A DNA stretch of 64,000 nt, taken from assembly GCF_005938655.1 (NCBI RefSeq), contig NZ_VCQT01000025.1, positions 1 through 64,000 of the forward strand. Reading direction: 5' to 3'. Each line of letters opens with the position of its first letter. The first letter of the stretch is position 1. The DNA is from Alloalcanivorax gelatiniphagus (lineage in GTDB: Bacteria > Pseudomonadota > Gammaproteobacteria > Pseudomonadales > Alcanivoracaceae). Positions 51,723-53,348 of this stretch are shown piece after piece. A program made the position numbers and the translations under genes. The notes beneath the pieces are model-generated. The model ran no database searches, was not told the DNA's origin, and saw nothing but the letters and a program-made list of their open reading frames with translations.

Positions 51723-52060
51723 ACGTTCGATCCCTCCTGCGCACCAATCTAACCGAAAAGGGTGATCGGCGGCGAATTGTTAAATGGAGGGTGCAAGGCG
51801 CGGCGTGAGGGGAACGAAAAAAAGTTCAGGGATGGCGGCTGTAGGAGCGGCTTCAGCCGCGATTAACGGCGGTGCCATCGCCAGCTGATCGCGACTGAAG
51901 TCGCTCCTACACAAGGGCCGCGATGAACCGGGATGGGGGATGGAAACTGTAGGAGCGGCTTCAGCCGCGATTAACGGCGGTGCCATCGCCACCTTATCGC
52001 GACTGAAGTCGCTCCTACACAAGGGCCGCGATGAACCAGAATGCGGGATGGAGGCTGTAG
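51723..52060. other. REP-rich intergenic region, left side of the insertion element
   Basis: No gene is supported. It contains two complete REP pairs and the first four bases of a third, listed separately as a 108-bp-period array. Confidence 0.7.
51841..52060. repeat. REP array with exact 108-bp period, left part
   Basis: Units begin at 51841, 51949 and 52057 (GTAG), each consisting of a REP pair (GTAGGAGCGGCTTCAGCCGC facing GCGACTGAAGTCGCTCCTAC) and conserved filler such as CACAAGGGCCGCGATGAACC. The third unit is cut after GTAG by the insertion element, and continues at 53249. Confidence 0.93.
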
Positions 52061-52082
52061 ATACCGTCTCTCCTATCCGGAC

Positions 52083-53060
52083 TCAACCCCCAGCGGGTTG
52101 GGTCTGGAATGGGGTTTGCCGATGCAGCACGCCGAAGGCGATGTGCATCAGCTTGCGCATTGCCGCAGTCAGTGCGGACATGGGCGTTTTTCCGGCCTGC
52201 CGCAACCGAGTGTAGAACCCTTGAACCACCGGGTTGTAGCGGCTTGCGGTCAGCGCCGCCATGTAAAGCCGTCGGCGCATCGCCGGCGAGCCTTTCTTGG
52301 TTAGACGCGGTCGACCTCGCACCGAGCTGCCCGATGTCCATTCGCATGGCACCAGCCCCACGAACGCCGCCGCCTGGCGAGCGCTGCGGAACGTCTTGCC
52401 TCGCAACAGAACCATCAGATGGACCGAGGTGACTTCACCGATTCCGGGGATGCTCTCAAGCAGCGCCTGGTCGCGTTTGAGATCACCATCGCCGTCGATA
52501 TGGTCTTTGATCTCTTCGCGCAGCCGTTTCGCCTCGCCCTGCAGGGCCAGCAGAACCTGATCGATCGATGACACCGTCTCCGTATCCCGGCTGAACATCG
52601 CTTTCTCTCGCCGATTCTCTTCCCGCTGGATGTCTTGCTGGACAGTCTCCAGACGACCGGCGAGGCGCCGTAACCGCCGAATCGCCGCCGGTTCCGGTTG
52701 CCACCGGGGTGGCTGCCGGTCGAGCCCGTAGCGCGCCAGAAGCTGGCTGTCCTTCTTGTCCGTCTTGCCTGAGTGGCCCAACGCATGGCCGTAATGCCGG
52801 ACCTGGGCGGGGTTCACGACATGGACCTGGACACCGACTTCGTGCAGCCATTCGGCCACCGGCTCGTGGTAAATACCCGTGGCTTCCAGATACACGCGCA
52901 AATCCCGGGCTTGCTCACCGGTTTGGCGGGTCAGCCAGTCGATCAATGCGGGAAAGTGTTTGGGGTGGTTGGTGAAGACCTTGGTCTTCACTTTGCCGTT
53001 TTCACGCAGCCAGCATAGGTCCAGCTTGCTCTTACTAACGTCGATGCCGATGTAAGCCAT
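52083..53060 (-). CDS. IS110-family transposase (DEDD type)
   Basis: 325 residues. The RuvC-like domain starts MAYIGIDVSKSKLD (D7), continues with VYLEATGIYHE (E59) and TDKKDSQLLA (D101, D104), the expected acidic set. The C-terminal transposase_20 domain has SIPGIGEVTSVHLMVLL, then the serine region WTSGSSVRGRPRLTKKG and MRRRLYMAALTASRYNP. It appears intact. Such enzymes use a bridge RNA to choose donor and target. The weak ribosome site GGTAGAGAG lies where the predicted RNA stem ends. Confidence 0.95.
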   Translation of the reverse strand: MAYIGIDVSKSKLDLCWLRENGKVKTKVFTNHPKHFPALIDWLTRQTGEQARDLRVYLEATGIYHEPVAEWLHEVGVQVHVVNPAQVRHYGHALGHSGKTDKKDSQLLARYGLDRQPPRWQPEPAAIRRLRRLAGRLETVQQDIQREENRREKAMFSRDTETVSSIDQVLLALQGEAKRLREEIKDHIDGDGDLKRDQALLESIPGIGEVTSVHLMVLLRGKTFRSARQAAAFVGLVPCEWTSGSSVRGRPRLTKKGSPAMRRRLYMAALTASRYNPVVQGFYTRLRQAGKTPMSALTAAMRKLMHIAFGVLHRQTPFQTQPAGG

Positions 53061-53232
53061 CTCTCTACCTTGCCTTGTCTGTGCAGCCTCTCTTCTAACC
53101 GGAAGTGGCTTGGATACCGTTCAAGTTTTGAGAGAAACAGCCCGGTGGTCCGATCTACAACACAGGTTCACGGACCTCAGGAGCGGCTCGGGTTGCCACC
53201 GGGCTGATAGGATGATGGTAGCTAACCATCAA
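53061..53232 (-). ncRNA. Predicted bridge RNA of the IS110 element
   Basis: Read on the minus strand, in order: a 7-bp hairpin (arms at 53213-53219 and 53225-53231); a target loop closed by CCCGGTGG (53141-53148) and CCACCGGG (53196-53203), enclosing CTACA (53155-53159) and AGGAGCGGCT (53179-53188) with an AGGT/ACCT inner hairpin; and a donor loop with CTTGT (53074-53078) and GATACCGT (53113-53120), possibly closed by CTCTC/GAGAG. AGGAGCGGCT equals the right REP flank and GATACCGT the element's left end; CTACA and CTTGT are the reverse complements of the left flank TGTAG and the right end ACAAG. Confidence 0.7.
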
Positions 53233-53248
53233 CCCGTGGAGAGACACA

Positions 53249-53316
53249 AGGAGCGGCTTCAGCCGCGATCAACGGCGGTGCCATTGCCACCTTATCGCGA
53301 CTGAAGTCGCTCCTAC
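53249..53316. repeat. REP array, right part of the split third unit
   Basis: AGGAGCGGCTTCAGCCGCGA to TCGCTCCTAC continues the unit begun at 52057. Joining 52060 to 53251 restores a unit identical in layout to the two complete ones. Confidence 0.92.
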
Positions 53317-53348
53317 ACAAGGGTTCCGGGTACCCACAGCGAAGAACC

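Follow-up and report, generated by a model that had tools for sequence, protein, structure and literature searches.

An IS110-group element in a split REP unit of Alloalcanivorax gelatiniphagus carries a predicted bridge RNA whose guides match its insertion site

Introduction

Bridge RNAs that covary with their targets across thousands of elements have been published for the IS110 family of insertion sequences (IS) (PMC11208160). The bridge RNA of IS621 has been established experimentally (PMC11208160), and the mechanism of IS621 and its insertion in repetitive extragenic palindromic (REP) sequences have also been published (PMC11208160, PMC11208158). A study from 2006 had described other IS110 elements that target REPs (PMC1525189). 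In this work, we have analysed a stretch of 64,000 nucleotides (nt) of Alloalcanivorax gelatiniphagus (contig NZ_VCQT01000025.1, positions 1 to 64,000; hereafter the window), which contains an IS110-group element inside a REP unit. The element is most probably, at about 0.95, an insertion sequence of the IS621 kind with a bridge RNA encoded in its left end that would guide its insertion into the REP.

Results

Boundaries of the element and its insertion site

The element occupies positions 52061-53250 on the minus strand and is 1190 nt long when one CT core is counted. The other copy of the core is located at 52059-52060, and AG on the plus strand (CT on the element strand) is found once per end (52059-52060 and 53249-53250). 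The flanks consist of 108-nt REP units of repeat family D1 on the plus strand, and each unit contains two REPs in opposite orientation. Unit 1 (51829-51936, an inverted REP pair with a spacer) and unit 2 (51937-52044) are identical at 100 of 108 positions. Unit 3 is split into its first 16 nt (52045-52060), which end in TGTAG, and its remainder (53251-53342). Joining of the flanks in silico restores unit 3 as a 108-nt unit that is identical to units 1 and 2 at 90/108 and 93/108 positions, respectively. The D1 repeats are located at 51829, 51937, and 53235, where the final spacing of 1298 equals 108 + 1190. The insertion point read at the junctions is between CTGTAG and GAGCGGCTTC. The insertion took place around the CT core with no target duplication beyond it, as CT is present at both ends and the flanks rejoin to a REP unit.

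An earlier note on this DNA, made from the sequence alone, had described three REP units at an exact spacing of 108 bases and the same split inside the third unit; both descriptions hold. The range it gave for the feature (52057-53316) contains the element but includes flank too.

The left non-coding end (53061-53250, minus strand) is 190 nt long with the core included and the right non-coding end (52061-52082, minus strand) is 22 nt long. A long left end and a short right end are the layout of the IS110 group, which is the opposite of the IS1111 group (PMC11208160). An 8-nt inverted pair (GTCTCTCC and GGAGAGAC) is located close to the two element ends. The REP units also carry CTTGTGTAG on the minus strand (51907-51915, 52015-52023, and 53313-53321), which has CTTGTGT in common with the left end of the element. 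This sharing is probably due to chance because relatives have the same left end in unrelated flanks.

Recombinase

The recombinase gene (52083-53060, minus strand) encodes 325 amino acids. The protein matches Pfam PF01548 (DEDD RuvC-like N-terminal domain, E 1.8e-25), PF02371 (C-terminal domain with the conserved serine, E 1.7e-22), and NCBIfam NF033542, which is named "IS110 family RNA-guided transposase" (E 2e-65). The nearest solved structures in PDB are those of IS621 (8wt6, E 2e-61) and ISCro4 (9t56, E 3e-57). Residues D7, E59, D101, D104, and S243 correspond to D11, E60, D102, D105, and S241 of IS621, and mutation of any of these five IS621 residues abolished recombination (PMC11208158). 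The domains, the catalytic residues, the layout of the ends, and the insertion around a core all fit the IS110 family and its IS110 group, to which the element is assigned from its sequence. The TIGR-Tas identity was rejected, with NF052498 scoring 19.9 bits against a cut-off of 100; no guide array was searched for.

Conserved structure of the predicted bridge RNA

A covariance model was built from the left ends of 24 relatives (alignment A1) with the window excluded. The model matches 53250-53060 with 144.4 bits (E 2.1e-42), and this is the sole match up to E 10 on both strands of the 64 kb. The model also gave one match in each of 19 loci outside it, the weakest being the IS621 bridge RNA (26.2 bits, E 8.7e-7).

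The RNAalifold consensus of A1, which was aligned with MAFFT, contains 30 pairs. Both sides have changed in at least one sequence for 21 of them, and five of the remaining nine (columns 1-5 with 192-196) are no RNA stem but place the right donor guide opposite the left end. The consensus missed the stem of the target loop, for which a separate test was made. This stem is formed by a 5' arm (53196-53205) and a 3' arm (53139-53148), both on the minus strand. Over 25 sequences including the window, an element's own partner arm pairs at 7.92 of 8 positions on average, compared with 6.54 when arms were shuffled among elements, and none of 20,000 shuffles reached the observed value.

The single-sequence fold of the window RNA has an energy of -69.7 kcal/mol (z -2.9), with 2 of 200 shuffles as stable. 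It exhibits a 5' hairpin (53210-53235, minus strand), which also has compensatory pairs in homologues (A1 columns 16-47), and a strong stem that encloses both target guides. The guides themselves carry scattered weak pairs, and the mean unpaired probabilities of the four guides are 0.60, 0.51, 0.53, and 0.85. These features point to a conserved structure of the IS621 type, with a 5' hairpin, a target loop, and a donor loop.

Support for the loop structure in homologues, on which the earlier note had staked its proposal beforehand, was found in the changed consensus pairs and in the stem test. From the order it gave, a hairpin and then two loops, the hairpin and the target-loop stem are present in the fold; only the comparison with relatives points to the predicted donor loop.

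Guides and their agreement with the flanks

The target loop carries AGCCGCTCCT and TGTAG, which match the split REP, and the donor loop carries ACGGTATC and ACAAG, which match the element's own ends. The left target guide with the core (AGCCGCTCCT, 53179-53188, minus strand; AGGAGCGGCT on the plus strand) equals the REP on the left side of the element. The right target guide with the core (TGTAG, 53155-53159, minus strand; CTACA on the plus strand) is complementary to CTACA of the right flank. The left donor guide (ACGGTATC, 53113-53120, minus strand; GATACCGT on the plus strand) equals the element's own right end. The right donor guide (ACAAG, 53074-53078, minus strand; CTTGT on the plus strand) is complementary to the element's own left end, CTTGT. 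All four matches had been read in the 190-base end before this analysis and were recovered at the positions given.

The donor guides, as read from the sequence, would be complementary to the element's own ends, the right one over only 5 nt; the donor ends hardly vary. An automatic best-match search for donor guides chose other places in some relatives.

The target guides were compared with the flanks of relatives taken from whole-genome searches, since a scan of genome contigs by protein only had yielded one relative. Relatives of the recombinase that are complete or almost complete are present at 69 loci (L001 being the window), of which eight were excluded from the guide-target rows: L008, L018, L030, L037, L045, L048, and L070 (left junction unmatched by the pattern, flank missing, contig edge, or unprocessed) and L074 (same site as L073). 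With L039 added, 62 sources gave 63 rows. The guide column was set by the row of the window in the model alignment, independently of the flanks.

Over the seven positions before the core, the left guide agrees with its own flank at 7 positions in 44 rows, at 6 in 15, at 5 in 3, and at 0 in one. When one row was kept per genome and guide (40 rows), the corresponding counts are 25, 11, 3, and 1. The mean over these 40 rows is 6.4 of 7, compared with 2.8 for shuffled flanks, and 0 of 100,000 shuffles were as good. The own flank is the best or tied best in 36/40 rows and strictly the best in 23/40. In genomes with several copies, the left guide agrees at 7/7 for 8/8 copies in G025, 5/5 in G643, 3/3 in G734, and 2/2 in G000 (the window's own genome); agreement is 7/7 for 6/9 copies in G427, 2/4 in G639, 2/3 in G020, and 0/2 in G804, and 6/7 for the rest of these four genomes.

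For the right guide, the mean agreement over 30 rows is 3.9 of 4 positions, compared with 3.28 for shuffled flanks (0 of 20,000 as good). This guide follows the changes of the target from CTAC to CTGA (L012, L031, L032, and L060) and to CTCT (L075). Agreement is incomplete in L011 (2/4) and L005 (3/4). The right flank of L011 (G036) reads CTCGTAT, which is like the element's own left end, and its guide predicts CTGA; this flank is possibly a relic of a tandem or of joined ends.

The match between guide and REP could in principle be a captured REP fragment or chance, and REP-like sequence was readily at hand in a genome that holds the target 12-mer 624 times. The match occupies a loop position fixed by alignment and is accompanied by three more matches in the expected order. 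It is also seen in relatives with flanks unrelated to this REP, and it is lost when the flanks are shuffled. We regard capture or chance as extremely improbable. The target guides are complementary to the insertion site and covary with it. The earlier proposal of a bridge RNA that targets the REP family is upheld, as far as sequence comparison goes, by the held-out model and by a guide-flank match that is specific to the own flank.

Targets and guide changes among relatives

Of 31 combinations of genome and right target, 23 have CTAC as the right target, as do 47 of 59 copies. On the opposite strand CTAC reads GTAG, and this tag marks a REP superfamily present in many prokaryotes (PMC3733652). 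In most cases the right guide reads GTAG, the tag common to REPs, and the left guide changes from host to host. With one mismatch allowed, 27 of 54 copies have repeats of the target in their flanks, compared with 4 of 54 for the reversed pattern. On a plasmid of Saccharobesus litoralis (L077), target repeats (AAGCATAAATGCTCGCCTAC and variants) adjoin the element on its right side. Weaker relatives are present in 21 phage records.

Another genome of the same genus, G001, contains 69 copies of GCARGCTCCTAC and 1 copy of the window's 12-nt target; the window's genome contains 0 and 624, respectively. The guide of the G001 element before the core is CAGGCTC and its site is CAAGCTC, which is one mismatch. 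The recombinase gene of this element (L004) has an in-frame stop, and the bridge RNA of the element can still be aligned with the family. In four more genomes of the genus, the window's target is present in 25 to 165 copies, with no recombinase relative at E 1e-60.

Genome G020 has three copies (L006, L013, and L015) that are 96-97% identical, with 36 to 48 differences per 1197 positions. Their guides before the core are AGTCGAC and ATCCGAC, which match their own sites at 7/7, and ATTCGAC, which matches at 6/7 and is one change from each of the other two. In G639, one guide is found at two single-mismatch sites and one fully matching site. The guides of G020 and G639 are compatible with retargeting through tolerated mismatches, as judged from few copies. 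Two bridge-RNA matches in G639 (L064:1299-1489 and L064:2765-2955) are 1466 nt apart and represent two neighbouring family elements.

These copies also bear on the explanation that the non-coding end is a mere regulatory leader or antisense region and that the protein picks the target by reading the REP hairpin. REPs are palindromes, and the hairpin at 19 of 44 target sites was better than shuffles at p <= 0.05 (IS621 counted twice). The window's own site failed this test (p 0.19). Guides differ among related elements and each matches its own flank, down to the three nearly identical G020 copies with their different guides. With the same protein, IS621 inserts at a new matching site once its guide is changed (PMC11208160). 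Hairpin reading by the protein is accordingly considered very unlikely. It is not claimed that all targets are REPs because the hairpin test was mixed.

The comparison suggests, tentatively and at slightly less than even odds, that most elements of the clade use a two-part REP address, where the right guide is fixed on GTAG and the left guide is free to adapt to the host's REP stem, moving step by step via single-mismatch intermediates. If so, related IS110 elements could track the spread of REPs between genomes with the protein unchanged. No paper on a GTAG address of bridge RNAs for REPs was found in the open-licence literature, a search that did not cover most subscription journals.

REPs and element copies in the window's genome

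The window's genome is 4.2 Mb in size, and the window copy is located on its contig C18. The REP 23-mer TGTAGGAGCGGCTTCAGCCGCGA is present in 286 exact copies (0 for the reversed control), the 12-nt target AGCCGCTCCTAC in 624 (5 for the reversed control), and the REP arm with one difference, AGTCGCTCCTAC, in 398 (1 for the reversed control). A gene for a Y1 transposase of 158 amino acids on contig C9 (L079:1438-1911) has inverted REP pairs of the AGTCGC type on both sides. REP pairs as flanks are a known arrangement of REP-associated tyrosine transposase (RAYT) genes, and this RAYT-like gene is a possible source of the REPs of this genome. No exact copy of four REP-arm patterns was found beside the second Y1_Tnp gene of the genome (L078, 3324 bases). 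The palindrome, the high copy number, the inverted pairs, and the RAYT-like gene together identify the predicted target as a GTAG-tagged REP.

The other copies in this genome agree with the sites expected from the guides. All three right ends (C18, C21, and C4), which were identified by protein search, follow TGTAG, and both left ends (C18 and C11), which were identified by left-end search, precede GGAGCGGCTT; five of five element ends are at the predicted half-target. Insertions at non-matching sites, which the earlier note had named as counting against its proposal, were thus not seen among these ends. The right end on C4 cannot be placed in a REP from both sides because this copy ends at the contig edge. 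At the end of contig C4 (L003:1585-1636), element sequence runs into other letters, which presumably resemble a sequencing adapter, and contig ends of this assembly need care.

Candidate promoter at the circle junction and proposed mechanism

When the ends are joined as in a circle, TTGAGT (52081-52086) is followed at a spacing of 17 nt by TATCTT across the junction, as a sigma-70-like candidate promoter. It has 8 of 12 consensus letters, compared with 7 and 6 at the integrated ends (shuffle p 0.043). In 23 of 31 elements, the joined ends score higher than either integrated end. A junction promoter has been reported for IS110 elements (PMC11208160), and the candidate agrees with that report, short of proof.

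By analogy with IS621, the element would be excised as a circle, and its two ends, once joined, would form a promoter from which the left end would be transcribed into the bridge RNA. One loop of the RNA would pair with the target, AGCCGCT-C with the CT core and AC, which is the foot of the REP hairpin. The other loop would pair with the circle junction, ACGGTAT with CT and TGT. The recombinase would then swap strands at the CT core, and the insertion would duplicate the core only. We infer transcription of the RNA, formation of the circle, and present activity of the element.

Discussion

The window contains a recombinase of the IS110 family with its five catalytic residues, an insertion point known to the nucleotide, a conserved RNA structure, and a guide-target match that is specific to the element. 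Several observations weigh against a guided and mobile element. Only the C18 copy is complete and the other copies are cut at contig ends. The left-end search gave two more short and weak matches (35 nt, E 0.12; 23 nt, E 0.77), which were not counted as ends. The left end on C11 (L039:1-201) is 95% identical and has ACATGG where the region of the window's right donor guide has ACAAGG. The L076 row agrees at 0/7, being one position out of register in the alignment, and was counted anyway; the left guides of the distant relatives L011 and L012 agree at only 5/7. The Rfam scan of the window at the gathering threshold returned 3 tRNAs only and did not match the bridge RNA. The donor loop is absent from the single-sequence fold, where the donor region folded unlike the family model. 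The score of the junction promoter is modest, and no more than 5 of 31 elements individually pass a shuffle test for it.

Some of these observations favour another explanation, that the architecture of the element is intact and the element is no longer mobile, a dead passenger; as to origin, this is compatible with bridge RNA-guided insertion. There is a single complete copy, the C11 copy may be dead given its changed right donor guide, and the recombinase gene of the relative in the same genus, L004, is interrupted by a stop. Against this, the window copy has an open frame of 325 codons, the five catalytic residues, and four matching guides, and the three right ends and two left ends represent past transposition in this genome. 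Loss of mobility is considered unlikely, with appreciable weight left to it, and an IS621-kind element guided by its predicted bridge RNA is preferred.

The locus offers a clean natural example of a mobile element whose landing site fits the RNA guide read from its sequence, and the genome has 624 sites of this kind. How an RNA-guided element changes its target can be studied in sibling copies whose guides have diverged within one genome, which amount to natural snapshots of retargeting. The two species of one genus, where the guide of each element is close to its own REP, offer further snapshots. The relatives also widen the set that can be compared with IS621, through recombinases whose guides differ and through numerous natural landing sites.

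The findings in this work are well supported as a new example of a recently discovered mechanism and not as a new mechanism; neither the mechanism nor REP targeting is new because IS621 has already established both. IS621 from E. coli belongs to the IS110 group and shares with this element the recombinase family, the five catalytic residues, the CT core, and a similar gene length. Its left-end bridge RNA is found by the model built from this element's relatives, and its REP site also has the right target CTAC. The two elements differ in protein sequence (42% identity), in the left end (205 nt in IS621 and 190 nt here), and in the guide before the core, which is GAGCCGCTC in IS621 and GTATCGGGC here. 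A different REP would be targeted than by IS621 because these guides differ. ISCro4, also of the IS110 group, has a recombinase that is similar over residues 3-320.

ISPpu9, ISPpu10, and ISPa11 from Pseudomonas are IS110-family elements that are highly selective for REPs (PMC1525189). Their 2006 description makes no mention of guides. In the seekRNA elements ISEc11 and ISEc21, an RNA of the long non-coding end likewise selects the target, and natural redirection has been reported between relatives whose transposases are 72% identical (PMC11187229). Redirection in the seekRNA elements was observed between related elements, whereas the guide differences in this work are found among 96-97% identical copies within one genome.
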